From: Hydra vulgaris
Taxonomy: Eukaryota; Cnidaria; Hydrozoa; Anthoathecata; Hydridae
DNA length: 64,000 bases
NCBI RefSeq assembly: GCF_038396675.1
Contig: NC_088934.1
Span: 43,130,001-43,194,000, forward strand
Direction: 5' to 3'
The position numbers and the translations under genes are program-made. The first letter of the stretch is position 1. Every line of letters starts with the position of its first letter. Of the stretch, positions 21,031-60,400 are shown in pieces. Below the pieces are notes generated by a model. That model saw nothing but the letters and a program-made list of their open reading frames with translations, ran no database searches and had not been told where the DNA came from.

Positions 21031-22281
21031 CTACTTCATAATTTTAGTATCTGCTAAATTACAATCATTAAATATCGAATTATACAATCTTGCCAAGAGA
21101 ATATCATCTTCTTCTGAAAAGTGATCGGAAGGAAAGTTGTATTTAATTTCATCACTTGACAAAAAATGATGTTTAAATGAATTTTGTATAACTGACACTG
21201 GAATTTCATTCCATGCCTGCACCACTAAGTAAATAACATCATTCAAGTTTATATTTTTCTGTGCTGAAACTGTTCCATCTTCTGCACTTAAGGCTCCAAG
21301 ACATGCAAATAGATGTTTGCGATGGCGTTGTTTTAGTGATTTTATCACACTTTGATCTAATGGTTGCAATAATGGTGAGTCATTAAGGGGAAAGAACATA
21401 ACTTTGAAAATCGGGTTACCAGTAAAATTATTTTCAGACACAAGGCAAGTTGCATTATTTATTAAGAGAAGGGCTTTTACTGGAAGATTTTTAGATTCAA
21501 AGTGTCGAGTAACTGAAGGTATGAATATATCATTATACCAGTCACTAAAAAGTGTATAAGTTTGCCAAGCATTTTTGGATAATTTTTAATATACTGGCAA
21601 ATATATACTTTTGAAGCAACAAGAAAATTTCGATTTCCTTATCATCATCAAATTTAATTTATGTGTACCTGTAGCGTTTACGCATCGCATAATTGTTACT
21701 CTTTCCTTCATTGCCTTTCTTCCAGCAGCGGTTTTTTCAAAATTTGTAACGTTAATTTTATTGGGCAACCTTTTATAGATAAAACTAGGTTCGTCGCAAA
21801 CATATATTTGTTCAGGCAAAAAACCATTTTCAGCAATATAATTTTTAAATTTATTTTTAAATGAAATTGCTAGTTCCACCTTGCAAGACATACTCTCTCT
21901 ACAAACCAACAAAATCCGTATACCGTGGTATTTTTTAAATTTCGTTAACCATCCATCACTTGTTACAAATGTTTCAGGTCCATTATTTAATCTATTTACT
22001 TCAAGTGCTCTTAATTTTATCATTTCTTTTGTAACTAAATTGTTTAAATATCGCCGCAAGAAAACACTGTATCGCCGCAAGAAAACACTGTATTGCCGCA
22101 AGAAAACACTGTATCGCCGCAAGAAAACACTGAACTCTGATTCACATACGTTTTGAATGCTTCTTCTTTCTTTATTTTCTTTTACTCTACTTATTGTAGA
22201 TTTAGCCACTTCGTTACCAATGTCCTTTGTTTTCTTATCATTTTCAATGTCCTTTAAAATAGATATTTTACCATTTAACAA
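21031..22281 (-). pseudogene. pogo/Tigger (jerky-like) transposase, DDE_1
   Basis: The minus frame 22,281-21,586 (231 codons) starts inside the N-terminal helix-turn-helix region (ISILKDIENDKKTKDIGNEV). It passes through the CENP-B-type second DNA-binding domain (SDGWLTKFKKYHGI) and enters the DDE_1 core at VCDEPSFIYKRLPNK, which carries the first catalytic Asp. After a gap with stops the core resumes at 21,441-21,031 with LLLINNATC and then PLLQPLDQSVIKSLKQR. The second catalytic position, normally LLLDNAP, is Asn here. The CENP-B region is split by four copies of a 21-bp unit. The gene is inactive. Confidence 0.85.
22049..22132. repeat. 21-bp minisatellite, four units, in the pogo transposase
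   Basis: Four consecutive units of TATCGCCGCAAGAAAACACT plus G, one with a C-to-T change. On the minus strand they read as a 7-residue repeat (FLRRYSV) in phase with the transposase frame, so the expansion did not shift the frame. Confidence 0.9.
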
Positions 22282-22706
22282 AATTTAACGTCTTTTTTTT
22301 TTTCTGATTCATACTTTATGGTTAAATTTAAAGCACAAAAATTTTAATTTATTAATTAACAGAAAATAACAGAATTCAAGTAACTGCTCTGTTTAACAGA
22401 AATTCCCTTCAAAACTGGCAGCACAAAACACAAACATATTCCAATAACAGAATTTTTTACAATTTGAGGTTATGTTATTATGAACAGCTAATTTTACTTC
22501 TAAATTAATCTAAACTTAACTCAAATATTTAGCTTTACAAAAATAAGTTGCTTAATCAGAACAGTTGAACTAAAAAAAATTTCTTATATAGAGATTACTT
22601 ATAGAGAGGTAGTTATGAAGTAGTTGTATATGAAGTAAATGTATAGAGGTTGCTTATTAAGAATGTTACTTATAGAGAGGTTGCTTAAAAGCAAATCTCT
22701 ACATTA

Positions 22707-22744
22707 CACAGTGGGCCAGAATGCACTTTTACTGGACAAAATTC
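22707..22744 (+). promoter_or_regulatory. Transib left end: heptamer, 22-bp spacer, nonamer-like
   Basis: CACAGTG (22,707-22,713) equals the consensus heptamer of V(D)J recombination signals. After a 22-bp spacer comes ACAAAATTC (22,736-22,744), matching the consensus nonamer ACAAAAACC at 7 of 9 positions. This is the terminal sequence the transposase would bind. The nonamer equivalence is inference. Confidence 0.65.
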
Positions 22745-22753
22745 ATAACTAAT

Positions 22754-24022
22754 AGAGTATTTAATTATTTTAGTTTAAATAATTTATTATACAACAATCA
22801 GTTTGGCTTTAAGAAGAATAACTCAACCGAGCATGCAATTATTCAGTTGGTACGTGAGATTTCCAATTCTTTTGAAAAATCTCAATTTACATTAGGAATT
22901 TTTATCGATCTTTCAAAAGCATTTGATACTGTGGATCATGATATTTTACTTTATAAACTTAATTATTACGGAATAAATGAAAGAGTTAGTAAATGGTTTC
23001 AAAGTTATTTATCCAACAGAAAACAATTTGTTTCTTGTAATGATCTTAATCATACACAGTTTTTAAATGTTTCCTGTGGTGTTCCGCAAGGTTCCATCTT
23101 AGGCCCTCTTTTGTTCTTAATATATATCAACGACTTGCATAAAGCATCAAATCTTCTAAGTATTATGTTTGCTGATGACATAAACTTATTTCTATCTAAC
23201 AGTGACATCTACCTACTATTCTCCGTTATGAACAAAGAACTTCAAAACATATCTAAATGGTTTAAAAGTAACAAATTAACATTAAATGTAAACAAAACAA
23301 AATGGATTTTTTTCCACCCGCTCTCCAAAAAACGTTCTCTACCCCAAAATTTACCAAAAATTTTTATTGACCATAATGAAATAAAAAGAGATTCTGTAAC
23401 TAAATACCTGGGGGTTTTCATTGACGAGAACATCACATGGAAACATCATATTAACTATGTCTGCTCGAAAGTTTCAAAAAGTATTGGAATTCTATATAAG
23501 GCGCGTACTCATTTAGATAAAAATAATTTAACTAAACTTTATTATTCTTTTATTCATAGTTATATAAGTTATGGAATTATTGCCTGGGGTAGTACTGATC
23601 AAAGTAAGTTACAATGTCTCCATCGCCGTCAGAAACATGCGATCCGTGTAATTAATTTTGCGGATCGGTTCTCAAATTCCTCAATATTTTTCAATCAAAT
23701 GAAAATCCTCAATGTTTATAAACAAAACGTATATAAAAATTTATCTTTTGTTTATATGTGGAAGTATGATTTATCTCCTTTAATTTTTAAAGACCTTTTT
23801 ATTTTGAAACCTCTAAGCAAGTTTAACATGAGGAATAATAACTATTTAAATAAACCACTCTGTCGAACAAAGTTCAATCAATTCTGTATCACTTATCGTG
23901 CAGCTCATCTCTGGAACAAAATTATTTTGCCTAACTTCGGCTTACCCCTAACTTATTCTGTTTTTAAAATTAAATTAAAAGATCTCATTCTCTCTATTGA
24001 AAATATCTTAGAATATTTTTAA
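22754..24022 (+). pseudogene. 5'-truncated non-LTR LINE reverse transcriptase
   Basis: An uninterrupted plus-strand frame (about 433 codons when read from 22,721, of which the first ten or so are Transib sequence) encodes the RT of a CR1/Jockey-like LINE. It starts in the middle of the RT domain, with QFGFKKNNSTEHAI, IDLSKAFDTVDHDILL, GVPQGSILGPLLFLIYINDL and the catalytic FADDINLF. The thumb and C-terminal region follow with KYLGVFIDENITWKHHI and HRRQKHAIRVINFADR. The endonuclease and first ORF are missing, as expected for 5' truncation during target-primed reverse transcription. The open frame suggests recent insertion. A 3' tail with a GATCATTTGATC palindrome runs to an A-rich terminus at 24,300-24,326. 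Confidence 0.92.
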
Positions 24023-24327
24023 TTTGTCTTATGATATATAATAATTTTGAAATGTATGTTCAATCTTTGTTTTATACTTGTTGACAATTTGTTTCTATTT
24101 ATCTAAGTACTATTTTAATATTTTTATGTTAATTTTTTACGTTCTCTTATTGTAAAAAGGCGTTTTTATAATACTTTATGTACTCTGTTTTGTAAAAGGC
24201 TCCTGACGATAAGATCATTTGATCTTCTTTTAGAAGCCTTGTTTGTATTTGAAAAAAATATGTAATTTATATATATTACGTCAAATGTAAACAAAAACTT
24301 ACGAAAAAAATAAAAAAAATAAAAAAA
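22754..24327 (+). mobile_element. LINE insertion nested in Transib
   Basis: Begins at about 22,754, where the RT frame takes over from Transib sequence. It ends in an A-rich (TAAAAAAA)-type tail at about 24,326. AACTAAT precedes it (22,747-22,753) and recurs at the A-rich end, a plausible 7-bp target duplication. Confidence 0.75.
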
Positions 24328-24765
24328 ACTAATTTAATATTAGAGCTATATTCACTAAAATTAGTATGAGTACTAATATGATGTCTGCGCTTTTTATGAA
24401 GGTAATATTTTTTTATTTCGTTGCTATGGATACCTTTATTTTGCTTAGCAACAACCTACTTTTGTTATCTGCAGATATTTTATAAGTGCTATATTCACTA
24501 AATTTGGCATGAGTACCAATATGAGATCACACTTCTTACAAAAGTGATAATTTTTTAAATTTAGTTGTTATGGATACTTATATTGCTTAGTTACCGGAAC
24601 TTTCCTTAGTTACAAAGTGGTAAATTGATATTTGAATATCTTATCGGATTTTTGACCCACCTATATCGAATAAAAATTGAGTATTTAGGTAAATAATGTT
24701 TTAGGAATAATAAAAGCAAAAAATAGTGCAATTAAACGTTATCAATTTTAAATTACATCAAAAAA
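24328..24765. other. Transib 3' non-coding region with repeated motifs
   Basis: An imperfect tandem duplication with a unit of about 140 bp (24,339-24,470 and 24,480-24,600). Each unit holds GTTGCTATGGATAC or GTTGTTATGGATAC (24,420-24,433 and 24,564-24,577). Inverted relatives lie on the other side of the gene at 26,954-26,967 and 27,100-27,112, making them subterminal inverted motifs of the element. Confidence 0.65.
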
Positions 24766-26745
24766 TTATAAAACAATAATATCGTTTGAAGATTGTTTAA
24801 GTAATTGTAAAACATCTGAAGGAAATGCTTTATGATTTGTTTGGTGTGATGTTGATTTACGCAATGATGAAATAACAGGATCACTGGAAACTAGGAGTCT
24901 ATTGATAAGATCAGTATTTGTTGCTTTTCTGGATGTTTTTCGGCTGAAATTTTCGCGATAAGATTTAAAGTCTTTATTTCTAGCCTCTTGAGCTTCCTCT
25001 GACATAAGTCCGATGGGTAATGTAAGGCTTTTAATTATGTCATGTCCATGTATCAATACTTTGTGAACTGATTGAGCCATGTAATACCATGGATAAAGGG
25101 ACACATATAGTCTAAAAGTGTCAAAACAATAATCCTTGAACTTTAAGCAGTCTATTTCATATCCTGAAGAGAGCGTTACCAAGATAATGTAAAATCTGAA
25201 TATAAGGTTTTGGTCAATACCCAGAATTTCAGCTGTTTGTTCATATGCTGCAAAAGCAGGCCTTGAGGTATTGCCATCGTTACTTGTTCCAGAACCACCA
25301 CTTTTAGGGAAATCAACAACAAGTCCCATTTTGTTCATAAAATCAGTCTGAATCTTTTGTTTAGCTACAGATGCCTTTTCTTTGTGTTCTTTAGATCTTG
25401 CTTGCCACTTTCTTGTTTCTTTTTTATATGCAATGTGCAATAACATCTCAAAAAATCGAATCCATGCATGAAGACTGGAAAGACCATATTTGAACTCTCT
25501 GTTAGTATAATCTATATTAAGGATATCAAGACTATTCATATTTTTTGGAGAGACACCACACACTGAACAGCATTGGTATGAGTTATTTTTTTCAGATAAT
25601 ATTGTTTGAACCTTCCCATCAATCATTGTAAGTTCAATAATACAATTCACTTCAATAGAAGATCCGCAAACCTCTAATAAAATCATACCCAAGCTTTCTA
25701 TCTCACTTTTAATGTACTGATCTTCTTCAATCACAGATTCCTTGGATTCCATTTTGTATGCAAATCTTATGGGTCTACAATAGGCTGTGGAGGACGACTT
25801 TTGATTTCTCCAAATAGGCACCTTTTCGTTGCTGTTGTTAAATCCAGTCAAATCCAATGGGACAAGACAAGTAATAAATAATGATTCTTCACGCTTTAAA
25901 TCTCTGTTAATGTCGGGTTCTGATAAAAATTGTTTATAAATGCTTTGGCCAGTAGCACCATCAAAACCAGCCTTACACGTTAGTGTCATTGTTTTTATTG
26001 CTTTGTCGTTCAATATCAAGTGCCTTAGCACAGGTTCCTGAACTGCACAGATTCTTTGCAAAGTATGAGTCATTAAATCTTTTAAAGGAACTGAAGCTGA
26101 ATAGTCCTCCACTGTTATGTTTGCAGGATAACATTTCAATTTTGCATCTCTGACATCATTGTAAGCGGGGTAGATGTTATATTCTTTCTTCAAGGCTCCG
26201 CTTCTAATCAATTGATAGGAAGCTTTTGTCAGACTTGCATCAATTATTAAAGCCAGTGCTTCGTCTGCTGAATATTTAGTTGCTTTATCTGTATTTGATA
26301 TATTTAAAACATTCTTGGCAGCAATAACAACAGATTCATCTCTAAATTTTTTATTAGCAGCAAAAAATAATTCATTGGATGAATGAGATTCAATTAAACA
26401 AGATACACGCCGTTTTTTAGTTTTATTAGAACTATTATCAAATGCAACTGGTTTTTGACCACGTCTACTTGCAGTTGGTTCATTGTCTTTTTTTCTGACA
26501 ATTAAATATTCATTAAGTCAGTTCACAAACTTCTTTTCAAAATTTTTCACGGTATAGTTTGCAGATTTCCACTTTTTTTTATACAAGTAAACAAATCGTT
26601 GAACAGCATGTCTAAAATCAACGTCTTTAAAATCAGCAAATTTTGGCTGAATAAATTTTAATATATCTTCAGTAATATTTTGTTTTGAAATACTAAGATT
26701 GTTTTTTTGGAGAAAATTATGAATGTCTAAGTTTAACAAAACCAT
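24766..26745 (-). pseudogene. Transib transposase (RAG1 core homologue), one in-frame TGA
   Basis: A 660-codon minus-strand frame is interrupted only by TGA at 26,518-26,520 (codon 76); codons 77-659 are open. The family cuts DNA at CACWRTG-type ends by a hairpin mechanism and is the ancestor of RAG1. Residues that line up with RAG1 are visible. A first catalytic Asp lies in KAGFDGATGQSIYKQ (codon 262). A second lies in TMIDGKVQTIL (codon 376). The Glu lies in SEEAQEARNKDF (codon 587), matching the E962 context of RAG1. The zinc ligands are also kept: CSVC (393/396) and HKVLIH (561/566). The motifs GTSNDGNT and LYPWYYMAQSVHK are typical of Transib. Whether the TGA is a mutation or marks a downstream start (next Met at 26,211, too late for the N-terminus) is unclear. 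Confidence 0.93.
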
Positions 26746-27616
26746 ATCTAAATAATTATTGTAACAAGTATTTTGTATTTAAAAGTAAAATGTTATAATA
26801 TATATGCCGCCTGGACTACTAATACTTGTTAGTAATTAAGTTACTACAAGTGTTAGTAATTAAAATTAAAAGTAATTAAATTACTGTCAGTGTTAGTAAT
26901 TAAATTACTAACAACTACCGAAAATATGTTGTTGCTATGTTATGCAAAGTAAGGTATCCATAGTAACCAAAAAAAGTTAACCTCATAAGAATTCTGAATC
27001 TCATTTTAATACATACCCCCAATATTGTGTATTTAGCGCAAGTAAAATACTGTTAAAACAACGTTAATGTAAAAATGAGTTGTTGCTATGCAAAATTTAG
27101 TACCATAGCAACCAAGTTAAAACATACATAAAATCTGAACGGGGATTTAAGGGGACGAGCAATCAATTAAAACTCGATTGAAGCATCATATAGCTCAAAT
27201 AAATATAAAACAACGCATGGCAAATTGTGGTAATTATTAGTTATTGTGCGGCAAAAAATAAGTTTCTTAAGAAATTTTTTTTTTTAATCTGTGATTTTCA
27301 AAGTATAACTGAGATAACATGCTATAACAAATTTATTTCACACATTGGTTTTTCTTATCTCTAAATACTCTAGAATAACATGTACTAATTTTTTGTTTCA
27401 AAAACGTAGATGTAATTGAAATATAACACAACGTTGATGTCACCGTTAATTTTTTATTTATAATTTTTTTATTTTTTTATTTTATCTCAATATTCAAATG
27501 CTTAGAGTCCTGGTAACTAAGGGAATTAATATAAATAAATTATTAATAGATTTCTCCTAATATATGTAGATACTAAAATTAAATAGGTTTTCAAGATTAG
27601 ACAACTAAAATTTTTC
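26746..27616. other. Transib 5' non-coding region
   Basis: AT-rich. Contains AGTAATTAAATTACT-type short palindromes at 26,825-26,910 and the GTTACTATGGATAC-type motifs noted above. No additional gene. Confidence 0.6.
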
Positions 27617-27645
27617 CCATTTTGTCCACCTACTGGCCCACTGTG
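27617..27645 (-). promoter_or_regulatory. Transib right end: heptamer, 13-bp spacer, nonamer-like
   Basis: Read inward, CACAGTG (27,645-27,639), a 13-bp spacer GGCCAGTAGGTGG and ACAAAATGG (27,625-27,617), which matches the RSS nonamer at its first six positions. It aligns with the left end if nine spacer bases are gapped. Confidence 0.65.
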
Positions 27646-27678
27646 CATTATAGCAAAACTCTTCATTATAACAAACTA

Positions 27679-27960
27679 AAATCTCTACATTATAACAAAG
27701 ATTAACTATTAAAGTATTAAAAAAAATTAAGATATAATTTCTGCAGTGAAATTTAAATTTGAGCAAAAAACATTTATGGCACGTTTTTGTGGTACTATTT
27801 TCCACTGCGCGCCGCGGCTATTTTAATAAATTTATTATTAATAGTACCACAAAAACGTGCCATAAATGTTTTTTGCTCAAATTTAAATTTCACTGCAGAA
27901 ATTATATCTTAATTTTTTTTAATACTTTAGTAGTTAATCTTTGTTATAATGTAGAGATTT
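27679..27960. repeat. foldback element with 121-bp arms
   Basis: Arms 27,679-27,799 and 27,840-27,960 are reverse complements with a single visible mismatch. They flank a 40-bp loop that holds the only GC-rich spot nearby (GCGCGCCGCGG). Arm ends carry ATCTCTACATTATAAC, the same motif as in the DNA that flanks the Transib insertion. No coding capacity. Confidence 0.85.
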
Positions 27961-28589
27961 CAGCAAATTTTATGTAAAAAGATAATTTTTGAAGCCCAAC
28001 TGTTTCATATTTTTGTAAATCTTCAATTGAAGCTCATTTGCTTCGTCACTTTAAAAGTTATTTTCTATAAAACTTTTTATAAATAAGTATAAAGTGTTAT
28101 ACATTTTTGAAAGCATCATGCTATGGAGATTTTAGAACAAATTCATAATTTTAATTGTATGGTTTTGTTTACTAATAATTAAACTACAAAATGAGCTAGA
28201 AAATAAAAAATCCTAAAGTTTACCAATATTTTTAGTAGTCACCCACGCTTCCCCACGCTTTATTTTTGTAATTGATTTGTAGCTTAGATGTTCATAAAAT
28301 TGGTTTATTAAAAATTAGGTGCGGATACATGCGGTTTCTAAAATTATAGATAAAAAAAGTGTTAAAAGTCAGAAAACAGAAAACTGCTTTTTATCGTGCT
28401 TTCACACTATATCTGTTTATAACAATAATTTTGCGTAAGTTATTTTGTCTATTTTTTATTAAGAATTGATTTTGATGGACATACATTCTATTATTAGTAT
28501 TGTTATTGGTTGTTGTATATGAAGTTAAAATCCAAATATACTCTTTACGGCCATCTATATTTAACAAATGTTGTAATGGAATACTAGTG
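27961..28589. other. intergenic, no gene seen
   Basis: AT-rich. May contain the unrecognisable N-terminal part of the Transib relic that follows. Confidence 0.45.
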
Positions 28590-54400: not shown

Positions 54401-57400
54401 AATAAAGAAGAGTGTATGCCTTCAAGAATAACTTTAATACTGCAGTTAGAAAGAAATGACTCTTGAAAATGATTTAATAATCTCAAAAAATTTATAAAGA
54501 TTTATAAAAATTTATAAAGAAACTAATAACAGTGTGAAGACTAATTGTAGCCTAGTTGGAGAGACCAAAGCGTTTTCTAGCACTTTGCACAAGCAGCCGA
54601 TTTTTAATCTGATCTCTCTTCTGTAACAGCGTAAGGCTTGCAGTGTCTAAAACGAAACTTATTTAATTACTGCAAAAAATATTGTTGACATTCCTATATT
54701 GATGAATTAGAACTCTATTACTCTCGGACAAAGTCTAAAAGCACATTGTAAATGTAATTAGGCCTGCTTATTTGCTAAACTTGAGTCACTCTCTCATTGT
54801 TGTAAGGTTGCATTTCTTTTTTTTTTCTACTAATACTTTAAACTCACCTCCCCAGGCCGAGAAGGCCACTAAAGATGAGGAGGCTACCTAATTATGGTTA
54901 TAACCCTCTCTAAACACTATAACTCCATAACACAAACCTTGATGAACAAAATCGCTGCGCGGAGAAATAAGTTAAGCGCTGTACTACCAGGGATGTGGTA
55001 GGGATCGAACTCGGAACCTCTTGCTTAAGAAGCGATCGCTCTACCACTACACCATTACCGTGTTATACTCAAAACTTAATAGTGGTTGCTTGCAATCTTA
55101 TTGAAACTAAATTAGAGTTTAAAAAAATATATTAATATATGCCAGTATTTAATAAATAGTAAGTGTAAGTATAAAATTATAATATTATAAACTTTTTTCT
55201 AGCCCTTGCTATCAACCCCTGCTAAATCTTATATTTTTGCCGGGGCCAGATTTGCAAAAAGTCACATTTTTAGCCGGGGGTGGGTTGGGGCTACAGTCAA
55301 TTCATTTTGACATACCCTAGTTTAACAGTAATGGGTAATTCCATGTCAAATCATCCAAAAAAATTAAAAAATGTCACCCTATGTTTGGGATTTTGCTAAT
55401 TTTTTTATATGTTATATGGTTTATGAAAATTAAGAAAATTTGAAATTTGAAACCTCTAACCCCTTACGGTTCTTGAGATATTCAGGTTTTAATTTTCTTA
55501 TTTATGCTGACTCAGCATTTTTTGCAAAATGTATTTTTGTCATTAAATAGCAATAATTAATGGACGAAATAAGGTATCATTCTGAAATTTGTACATAGAC
55601 AATCTTCCATATGGCGGATACAACTATTAAATTAAAAAAATTTTTAGACCATGTTAAGTACATGTAAATTGAATAATAATGGCATTTATTTTGAGGTATT
55701 TTGACGGTCAAATTTGTGATGTCACCTTGATAATTTTTTTTTAGGCATTACTATAACTTACAATATAGGTATCAAACTTCACTATTAATTAAAAATATAT
55801 TATTGCATTTTTTGACTTTTCTAAATTCAGCCTTTCAAGTAAAGCTTATATAAATGCTGAGTCAGCATAAAATTTATTGCTAACTTATTAATGAAAAAAT
55901 TAGCTATATCTTAATTTCTGGTTGTAAAAAGTCATTTTCAAAGTCATTTTGAAGGCAATAATAGATGTATATAAATATAAATTCTAAATTTTTTGTACCT
56001 GGGGTAGGCCCCCCCCGCCCTCCCAAAAAAAACGAAAATTTTCCTAATTTTGTAAAAAGTTATTTTTAAAGTCATTTTGAGAGCAATGATAAATTTTTAG
56101 GTATTTATAAATATTTAGTGGGGTAGGCTTCCCCCTCACCCGCCCTACCACAAAAAATATATATATATTTTGCTAATTTTGTTATACCAATAAAATAAGG
56201 ATTGCTTTCTTAAAATTTTTCCATCAAGCTTTTGGATGCCAGCTAGGTTGAGGGTCGCAAATAGGCATATTACCAAATCTTTCCAAAAATGTTTTAATGA
56301 AAATATATAAAGACAAGTTACCAAGAGATTTTTATTTGTGAGGCCAAATTGTGCTAATTACACATACAATTATATTGTAACTATATTTAAAAAAATTATA
56401 TACAAGTATAAAAATAATGACGCAATAGAAACTTTTTCTAAAAATCTTGATTATTTTGTTCAATAATTTTTGCCAACTCAATTTCTGAAATTTTGTATAC
56501 ACGACCATTTGTTGTAGATGGCGGATCAATGGTACATAAAATATGATTTGATGGGACCCAACACATATCTTCTCGTGCAGGCCTAGAAAAACTTGGACTG
56601 GGACCATGTGGGTGCATAAATTGAATTTTATAATCTCCTTCTCCTTCATCTTTTTTGTTTATAATTCCAATCCACCAAAAGCTGTCATACATGCAAGCTA
56701 CATAGTCCATATGATTATAAATAACTTGCTGCACAACCAGCTCATTTGGTATCTGCACAAGCTTAAATGTCTGAACATCAGTTTGTTGACTCATTCTTTT
56801 AAAAGAAATTGTATATTTATCAATTGGTATAAAATGGTGAAAGGATCTTGTTCCTGGCAAGGTTCTTCCCATAGTAAACCTTGGTTGCAATGATGATCGT
56901 ACTTCATTTATTTCTATTTTATAAACTAAAATAAATTGAATGTTTTTTATATTGGTTACACAAAATTCAAACATCTTATCTACCTCCAAAATCTGTCCAG
57001 TCACTGTTCTTTTTAAACTAGCTTGTGCAGTTAATTGTTTCACTGTGCCGCCAATGCCATCACAAGCAGACTTACCATGGCTAGTAGCAAAAAAAACCCA
57101 TTCAGCATCAATATCAAAGTCTTCTTTGTGATGACAAAGATTAATAAAGTTTTTAAAGTTTTTATATTGTGCTGCACATCCATCAGTGAAGTATTTAATA
57201 TTACTAATCTGTAAAATGTTTGCCTTAATGTAATTGGTAATGAGCTGTTGTATTTTATATACAAAGTATACATCATGCTCAGCGTCATCAGAAAGGATGC
57301 AAAATGACTTTAATAGTAGTTTATCATTTGATTTATAGTAAATAATAATAGGGTGAAGTGTACATTTTGGTTTATTCCAATGGTAACTTAGCACCTCATC

Positions 57401-60400
57401 CTGAACAATAAATTGGAAGTTCTCTGCAAAGTCACCCAATACTATACACTCATTTTGATTTAATAACTCTTTACAGTCTTTGAGGTACTAGGCTTGACTT
57501 TTAGCTATAAGTGAATGAGATGTTAATTTATCTATTTTATTGTATATAAGGTCGATAACATCTTCAATATTATTTTTTTGATTGATCAGCGTAGTTCTAT
57601 CTGTATGCTGCCATTGGTTAATTGTTATTTCTTTATCGCTGTTGTCAAACTTTGCTGTTAAGAATTCTTTTAAAGCAGCAATACCAGGGCATAACGGACA
57701 TCGATGTAACATGCACTCTACATTATCCCTATTGCAAACAATCATTTCCATCAAATCTCTATAGTCTTTGTCAATTTTAAGAGCATCAGTTAACAACTTA
57801 ACATTCTGATGATAGGTACAGACACAAACACAGTGGGTGCCAGACGAGTTTGTGGTTATACACCATCTAGGGCGAAGGCTGCAAAACTTAGAAAATCTGA
57901 CGTTTAAGTTAGAATGTTGGAATTTAAATGCTACATATAGTTCCTTTAAATTAATCAATATTAGTCTTTATTGCATGTGTACCCTATACTGACAAAATCT
58001 TTTTTTCCAGGCAGCATTCGTGTGTACTCGTCACTTTGATAAAAGCTATGAACAAGATCAATGGTTGCGTGGGAAAGCGACTTTCCTTTTTTTGATGATG
58101 GTTTATGCAAAATTCCATGTTTTTTTTAGCTTTTCTAGCTTCTCGTACTAGGTAATTAGATACATTAAAAAATTCTGCAGACTTTGCGAGTGACCATGAT
58201 TCTGGAGTTAGTGTTAATATCTGAATTTTTGCGGAGTATGATGTCACATTTTTTATCTTATCTTTCAATTCATTTAAAAGTGAGTATAGATCGTCAATTT
58301 GGTTATCAATTGAAGAACTTAATGGTGTACAAGATGGTGTCAATGTAATCATAGGATCAATATCATAAACTTTTTTTATTTTGTTTGCTGTTGCTCCAGT
58401 TATTTGATCAAATTTTCTTTTGGCAGCTGGTAATCGTTGGTGTTTTGGAATTGATTTAAGCTTAATAGGTGACACACCTATAGATCCAAGACTTTCATTG
58501 AGAGATGAACGTTGTTCTTGTTCAGGCTCAATCCTACTATAGCATTGATCAATTGATTTTAATTCTTTATTTATACAATGCACCCTTTTGTAACAACAAC
58601 TGCATAATTTCCACCCAGGTACAGCAGCAATGTCTTGTGTTTTTAGAGTTATTGCCATTGATAGCGATATCTTCACATTTCCTATGAAAAAAAGGAAACA
58701 ATCATTTCTAAAAACTAATATCAACTCACCATCATTGTAAAGAACAAATGAGTGTAATTGTTAATTTATAAATGTACCTAATTTTTTTTAAATTTATTTA
58801 ACTACTATTTTAATCAAAATAATAAACTGTTTCATCAAAATAGTATAAAAATTACCTTTCACATTTTTCTTTCGATTTCCATGTTTTTTATATAGATTAC
58901 ACCATTTCTGAAATTTTCTTTCAAATGCAGCTCCAAAGTATTCTCTATGATAATAGCAAACTGTTGTAAACAATTTTTCACAATCAAATAAACCAGCTCT
59001 CCATAATAACTCTTGTTTTTCAACACTTGAAAACGCTGATAGATCTAAAAGACCTTGTCTTCTTGTTAAATCTTGCTTGTGGCAATCAATATTACATTCT
59101 AATCCTATAGAACACTTTTCCATAATCTAAACTTTTTAATCTATTCATCTATAAAAATCTGATTTTGAAAAATTTTACTAAAAAAATTTTTTTAGAAATA
59201 CCATTCACATTATTTAGTTTATGGAAAACTATTTATACAAATTATTTGTTAGGATGTGTCATATTATATGACTTCCTTATATATATATGATTAAAAGGTA
59301 ATTAAATTTTATTTTATTTACCAATCATTTAGTATAATTTATAACATTCATTAATTAGTTAAGTAAATATAAAATTGCTGCAAAGTAATAGGAAACTAAT
59401 ATTTACAACACGAAATTTTTGTTTAACCTTGCTTGTGGCAGTCAAAATTACATTCTAATCCAATAGAACACTTTTCCATCATTTAAAGTTTTTAATCTAT
59501 TCGAAAAATCTGATTTTTATATATTTTACTAAATAAATTTATTTAGAAATACCATGAACATTATTTGGTTTATAGAAAACTCTTATTACAAATTATTTGT
59601 TAGGATGTGTCATATATGACTTCCTTATATATATGATTTAAAGGTAATTAAATTTTATTTTATTTACCAATCATATAGTATCATTCATAACATTCTTTAA
59701 TTAGTTAAGCAAATATAAAATTCCTGCAAAGTAACAGTAAACTAATATTTACAGAATGAAGTCTAAACAGAAGCAATAAAATAAAAATGGGGGAGGGGGA
59801 AGGGAAGCCTCCCTCAGGTACCAAATATTTATAAATACGTATACATTTATCATTGCCCTCAAAATGACTTTTTAAAAAAAATTATAATTTTGTAAAAAAA
59901 CTTTTTACAAAATTAGGAAAATTTTCATTTTTTTTTGGGAGGGCGGGGGGGGGGGGCCTACCCCAGGTACAAAAAATTTAGAATTTATATTTATATACAT
60001 CTATTATTGCCTTCAAAATGACTTTGAAAATGACTTTTTACAACCAGAAATTAAGATATAGCTAATTTTTTTATAATTAAGTTAGCAATAAATTTTATGC
60101 TGACTCAGCATTTATATAAGCTTTACTTAAAAGGCTGAATTTAGAAAAGTCAAAAAATGCAATAATATATTTTTAATTAAGAGTGAAGTTTGATACCTAT
60201 ATTGTAAGTTATAGTAATGCCTAAAAAAAAATTATCAAGGTGACATCACAAATTTGACCGTCAAAATACCTCAAAATAAATGCCATTATTATTCAATTTA
60301 CATGTACTTAACGTGGTCTAAAAATTTTTTTAATCTAATATTTGTATCTGCCATATGGAAGATTTTCTATGTACCAAATTTCAGAATGATACCTTATTTC

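Follow-up and report, generated by a model that had tools for sequence, protein, structure and literature searches.

Within a 64,000-nucleotide stretch of Hydra vulgaris DNA (contig NC_088934.1, positions 43,130,001 to 43,194,000; hereafter the window), positions 22707-27645 are occupied by a transposon of the Transib type, designated family A, which has ends resembling recombination signal sequences and is flanked on both sides by a CATTA duplication. In this and six further Hydra families, the heptamer CACAGTG is followed by a first A-rich, nonamer-like block after 12-13 bp at the end upstream of the transposase gene and after 22-24 bp at the other end, so that the spacers are within one base of 12 and 23. 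The identity of the element and the conservation of its ends are near certain. More tentatively, at a probability we would place slightly below even, the two family A ends may form a 12/23-like pair, the asymmetry of which is used by the transposase. The features of the element in the window are as follows.

22702..22706, forward strand: left target site duplication (TSD) CATTA, repeated at 27646-27650 and matching the empty site
22707..27645, no strand assigned: whole Transib copy of family A, interrupted by a long interspersed nuclear element (LINE); 99.1% identity to the family copy L033
22707..22713, forward: heptamer CACAGTG of the long (3') end, read from the sequence
22714..22735, forward: 22-bp spacer of the 3' end (22 bp in families A, C, D, E, F and H; 24 bp in B)
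22736..22744, forward: nonamer-like block ACAAAATTC (AAAA invariant, columns 32-35, in the six 22-spacer families)
22747-22753 and 24327-24333: 7-bp duplication AACTAAT of the LINE, boundaries read from the sequence and from copy comparison
about 22754..24326, forward: LINE insertion with a reverse transcriptase frame (RVT_1, E=4.4e-29)
24766..26778, reverse: Transib transposase gene, open reading frames (ORFs) 24766-26517 and 26518-26778
27607..27616 (approximate), reverse: further A-run belonging to the short end (around GAAAAATTTT, offset 21-22)
27617..27625, reverse: nonamer-like block ACAAAATGG of the short end (AAAA invariant, columns 23-26, in five 13-spacer families)
27626..27638, reverse: 13-bp spacer of the short (5') end (12-13 bp in all seven families)
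27639..27645, reverse: heptamer CACAGTG of the short (5') end, read from the sequence
27646..27650, forward: right TSD CATTA, read from the sequence

The ends, the 22- and 13-bp spacers, the heptamers and the CATTA duplication, all of which had been proposed in an earlier note on this DNA, were confirmed on the sequence. The note's claim that these are the true termini also holds: CATTA is present on both sides, and the flanks joined without the element differ from a neighbouring repeat unit at one base in 18, which provides independent support for an exact insertion. The element reaches 4.9 kb only because a LINE was inserted (the stop-to-stop ORF of the LINE, 22676-24022, begins in the flank); other family A copies are ~3.36 kb long, and the identity to L033 given above was calculated over 3320 aligned bases. 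As the transposase is encoded on the minus strand, the gene is preceded by the 13-bp (5') end and followed by the 22-bp (3') end. The transposase frame is broken by one in-frame stop in the window copy and is unbroken in other copies.

We searched the Hydra genome (911.5 Mb in 15 contigs) for further copies. The 13-mer CACAGTGGGCCAG occurred 1007+979 times and not once when read backwards. With up to three mismatches allowed, the short-end pattern gave 283+289 matches and the long-end pattern, which also picks up the ends of family C, 374+360, while both reversed controls gave none. Convergent ends within 9 kb were short+long in 67 of 67 pairs, with no short+short or long+long pair, among the matches listed (100 exact short ends and 86 of 100 exact long ends entered the pairing). 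A 5-bp TSD was perfect in 22 of 24 pairs, and its first position was C in 38 of 44 when both strands were counted; L046 was scored as 2/13 by the script owing to a single base change. In the transposase search, 75 of 9083 candidates were scored, and their protein identity was 98-100%; the closest named homologues of the transposase were H. vulgaris proteins. Family A is, near certainly, a young Transib family of near-identical copies, some of which carry unbroken transposase frames. A study of the H. vulgaris AEP haplotype counts CMC-Transib among 14 putatively active families that are enriched there in comparison with strain 105 (PMC12220107).

Both ends could be read in the six further families: B (13/24), C (13/22), H (13/22), D (12/22), E (13/22, ambiguous by 1 owing to A-runs) and F (12/22). 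For family D, the two ends were taken from different copies, and the 5' heptamer of L063 is damaged. The transposases of the seven families are 42-56% identical to each other in pairwise comparisons, and the polarity is fixed, the short end being upstream of the transposase gene in 7/7. TSDs were perfect in the copies read of B, C, E, F and H. No relative with DNA context was found outside Hydra in the viral and genome contig searches. The 22/13 spacing and the ACAAAA block, the conservation of which the earlier note had proposed to check, are thus kept in family A and six more families, and the outcome that the note had named as refuting did not occur. Among the five 5' ends with a 13-bp spacer, and likewise among the six 3' ends with a 22-bp spacer, column identity was 1.0 for CACAGTGGG and for the inner AAAA; a few columns past the block also reached 1.0. 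The interior of the 5' spacer mostly showed column identities of 0.2-0.6; the 3' spacer varied less, 7 of its 20 interior columns being invariant.

A-runs are common in the Hydra genome, and chance runs in AT-rich DNA had to be considered as the source of the blocks. We rejected this explanation as extremely improbable. The block was in register in none of 5000 shuffles for the seven 5' ends, the seven 3' ends and the five 3' ends without C and H, a procedure that assumes independent ends (related families are not independent); the background check suggested by the earlier note therefore came out in favour of conservation. Furthermore, the spacing was bimodal, with no scatter of distances, even when the gap was left free. 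For the D/F-type ends, a gap of 11-23 bp gave 11 (2 ends), 12 (39), 13 (10), 17 (1), 21 (3) and 22 (45) among 100 listed of 120+129 matches, with 0+1 matches in the reversed control.

The pairing seen in family A was also found elsewhere. Convergent pairs were short+long in 16/16 cases for D/F and 16/17 for B (from 100 listed ends each) and in 8/8 for E (from 44 ends), in which 13 was paired with 22 (6), 23 (1) or 20 (1). Most listed ends were unpaired (17 pairs per 100 ends for B, 8 per 44 for E and 16 per 100 for D/F). The sole 13+13 pair of family B spans 8.4 kb, versus ~3 kb for B, and probably represents two separate elements. The 72 ends read among the matches listed for the C1 contig had spacings of 22 (33), 13 (26), 19 (4), 14 (3), 24 (2) and 15, 12, 21 and 10 (1 each), where offsets within pure A-runs are ambiguous by 1-2; the short C-type elements among these matches carried one of each end in 4/4. 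We also noticed that short ends outnumbered long ends (79 versus 21) among the 100 family B ends listed genome-wide, an excess possibly due to short elements with another long end.

A second group of Hydra Transibs is closest, among the queries tried, to the insect protein P0047 (63 matches, 41-54% identity). The single copy of this insect-like group with readable ends has CACAGTG-22-CCAAAAGTC and CACAGTG-22-CCAAAATTC, flanked by a duplication with one mismatch (CAATG/CGATG). The 22-bp pattern matched 93+89 places in the genome (control, 0) and formed, among 100 listed, 24 convergent pairs with both ends of the 22 type, which the pattern required; 12 of the 24 pairs enclosed one of the 31 transposase matches (of 63) that were compared. 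The contrast in symmetry comes from this one insect-like family. In an unrooted 42-row tree, in which the insect-like Hydra protein is absent and the ends of 12 further rows on the asymmetric side are unread, a branch with support of 100/99 splits the seven asymmetric families from HzTransib and P0047. The seven do not form one clade by themselves: the tree needs four changes, with the 12 unread-end rows interspersed. Between the two groups, 11-15 of the 22 spacer bases agree, a level reached by 0-23 of 2000 shuffles; the long end is thus common to both groups, and the short end marks the asymmetric one. The simplest story, if 22/22 is ancestral, is a change by one turn at the 5' end. Loss of asymmetry in the insect-like group is equally possible, because PMC9435367, in the portions consulted, assigns asymmetric ends to all Subgroup I Transibs. 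The earlier note had suggested that the asymmetry could predate RAG; as stated, this is not supported, since the 22/22 family shows that the state has changed within Transib, and the asymmetry cannot be placed ahead of RAG from Hydra alone. As a separate observation on the tree, the protein P0009, labelled as coming from a metagenome-assembled genome of a Rickettsiales bacterium, pairs with Hydra family D (branch lengths 0 and 0.064) and is probably host DNA inside a bacterial assembly.

The element belongs to the Transib superfamily, as judged from (i) homology to HzTransib over the core (E=6.8e-104 for L033), (ii) a DDE triad (D262, D376 and E587 of P0001) invariant in the 40-row alignment A2, (iii) the 5-bp TSDs, and (iv) terminal inverted repeats (TIRs) beginning with CAC. 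A 3360-bp family copy has a single stop-to-stop frame of at least 100 amino acids, that of the transposase, and thus no RAG2-like gene was noticed, with no RAG2-directed search made. The CTT1 motif Cx2Cx3GHx4C, a mark of RAGL elements or Subgroup I Transibs, was found in 0/106 homologues and 0/7 Hydra families, some of which are incomplete at the C-terminus. Residues ~84-150 resemble a nonamer-binding domain (NBD) and carry a GRP motif; GRP or GRK is present in 50 of 65 homologues of at least 600 amino acids. The NBD-like assignment is supported in part by this motif, by collinearity with RAG1 in the profile match and by part of the structural alignments, in which the aligned stretch begins at model residues 88-110 for 16 of the 30 RAG1 rows. 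The GRP motifs are aligned by hhalign with a weak score (P=0.018, probability 2.6%), and the NBD profile alone gave no RAG1 match. Compared with the nonamer ACAAAAACC, the ACAAAA part of the Hydra nonamer-like block agrees and the last bases are mostly different.

If the asymmetry is genuinely used by the transposase, the RNase-H-like core would read the heptamer and the N-terminal NBD-like region would bind the ACAAAA block, the short and long positions of which are approximately one helical turn apart in the seven families. The favoured substrate, in the absence of RAG2, would then be a synapse between a short and a long end. Synapsis of two ends and hairpin-forming cleavage at the heptamer, followed by excision and by reinsertion with a 5-bp staggered target duplication, would be expected from HzTransib and RAG. 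One may speculate further, albeit on the somewhat unlikely side, that a RAG2-free transposase by itself enforces a 12/23-like rule, with the two ends one helical turn apart and the short end held upstream of the gene, that related groups in one genome switched between 22/22 and 12-13/22-24, and that a second A-run in the short ends (see below) is a relic or a partner of such a switch. If this is the case, the gain of one block, or its displacement by one turn, would be enough to create a short signal, either earlier than RAG or in convergence with it.

Several observations weigh against use of the asymmetry. The 22/22 insect-like family has spread in the same genome as the asymmetric families, the spacing difference is 9, 10 or 11 and not always 11, and the equivalence of the NBD is weak at the sequence level. 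The 3' spacer is fairly conserved, and its length may simply follow from its sequence. Of 55 positions beyond the block, 43-51 are the same between the 3' ends of families A, C and H (14-25 for other pairs), while their transposases are 43-44% identical; end modules were thus shared or swapped, and the seven families are not seven independent cases. Neither are the pairs within a family independent, as copies inherit both ends. Partly shared ends and copied pairs are what can be cited, together with a 22/22 arrangement that works in the sister family, for a neutral alternative, in which an ancestor with unequal ends was copied by a transposase indifferent to the difference. We consider this unlikely, because the positions are kept across transposases as diverged as those of the seven families and because all four short C-type elements listed on the C1 contig have retained a short and a long end.

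A simple 12-versus-23 reading is further weakened by the second A-run of the short ends. Besides the block at 12-13, AAAA is found at offset 20-24 in 7/7 short ends (shuffle mean 1.97; 0/3000 shuffles as high), at 21-23 in 6/7 (0/3000) and at 22-24 in 5/7 (5/3000), windows that were picked after inspection of the data with several tried. No AAAA was found at 11-14 of the long ends (0/7). Judging from the sequence, the short end resembles a long-distance A-tract accompanied by a block one turn nearer. The earlier description of 12- and 23-type ends stands as regards heptamer, ACAAAA block and unequal spacers, but the short ends are not plainly of the 12 type, and the two ends may be less unequal than they appear. 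This lowers our confidence that the asymmetry is used, and raises that in a hidden symmetry, in which an A-tract ~20-24 bp from the heptamer is the working site in every end and the short-end block is auxiliary or in another register. The 22/22 sister family also fits such a symmetry. Nevertheless, the 12-13 block is tighter in position and sequence than the second run, and the 20-24 window was chosen post hoc; hidden symmetry is, in our judgement, improbable as well.

Transib ends of an asymmetric, 12/23-like kind have already been published, as has a proposal on their ancestry (PMC8355894 and PMC9435367); the Hydra ends are not the first to be described. According to the accessible text of PMC8355894, after Kapitonov and Jurka (2005), D. 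melanogaster Transib5 and An. gambiae Transib2, N1, N2 and N3 are 12/23-asymmetric, and they share with the Hydra elements the heptamer, a nonamer-like block and spacers of 12 or 23 (+/-1) at opposite ends. Unlike these insect elements, the Hydra ones comprise seven families, in each of which the short end precedes the gene, and they have a second A-run in the short end and GG(C/T)CA(G/A) after the heptamer (GGGCC in H). The consulted part of PMC9435367 describes asymmetric TIRs for some Subgroup II Transibs in addition to Subgroup I, and its figures include HvuTransib-7 and -9, in which the present ends may be drawn. In the open-access literature searched, we met no statement that the polarity is fixed, that one Hydra family is symmetric or that the short ends carry a second A-run.

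HzTransib, which according to PMC8289069 has symmetric TIRs that bear little resemblance to the nonamer, matches the Hydra protein from residue 155 onwards (PDB 6pqn, 6pqx and others), and thus the solved chain has no counterpart of the N-terminal NBD-like part. ProtoRAG (27/31) and AanRAGL (4/13), as presented in the sections seen of PMC8289069 and PMC9435367, resemble the Hydra elements in their bipartite asymmetric TIRs and 5-bp duplications, but carry RAG2L and different inner motifs; the spacer difference is 4 bp in ProtoRAG and 9 bp, equal to family A, in AanRAGL. With vertebrate RAG1/RAG2, the Hydra Transib has in common the CACAGTG heptamer, the ACAAAA block, a spacing within one base of 12/23 and a RAG1-like fold, the core being ~16% identical to RAG1 in the structural alignment. 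Unlike vertebrate RAG, it is a mobile element, and no RAG2 was found in it (see above for the scope of this statement). Mouse RAG1 without RAG2 showed no 12/23 preference, as far as the excerpt of PMC8355894 reports. This result makes a RAG2-free asymmetric transposon informative, yet reduces confidence that the transposase reads the difference. The origin of the vertebrate 12/23 rule is a long-standing question, and one Hydra genome that holds both 12-13/22-24 and 22/22 Transibs makes testable both short/long discrimination without RAG2 and the nature of the change that switches the state. If the asymmetry is neutral or hidden, caution is needed before Transib ends with unequal spacers are taken for forerunners of RAG signals.

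A few ends departed from the common types. No partner was found for L069, L070, L071 and L072 (first block at 22, 19, 12 and 10). For L068 (15), a partner of the 22 type lies at a distance of 1.75 kb but lacks a matching duplication, and L073 (22) has two partner-like places without a matching duplication, one of which is a 22-type end with two mismatches and possibly forms a 22+22 pair. L013/L017/L021/L022 and L012/L020 were discarded, as they have common flanks and look like pieces of other repeats. L061 is a rearranged family D copy with its 5' piece inverted relative to the transposase. At L008/L009 (G000:C1, ~2519297-2519326), two Transib-type ends face apart with 4 bp between them; one of them is 15 bp from its block and has a 22-type partner 1.75 kb away, with no matching duplication.

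Other features were noticed in the window. Long ORFs without a Pfam match lie at 56438-57487 and 57984-58760 (minus strand). Beside the Transib, two ORFs at 21031-22284 (minus strand) with DDE_1 and HTH_Tnp_Tc5 domains belong to a broken transposon, which we take to be pogo/Tigger-like. On its other side, the Transib is adjoined at 27676-27963 by an inverted repeat resembling a miniature inverted-repeat transposable element (124 nt, 98% complementary, with a 40-nt centre), the repeat unit of which resembles the Transib target site.

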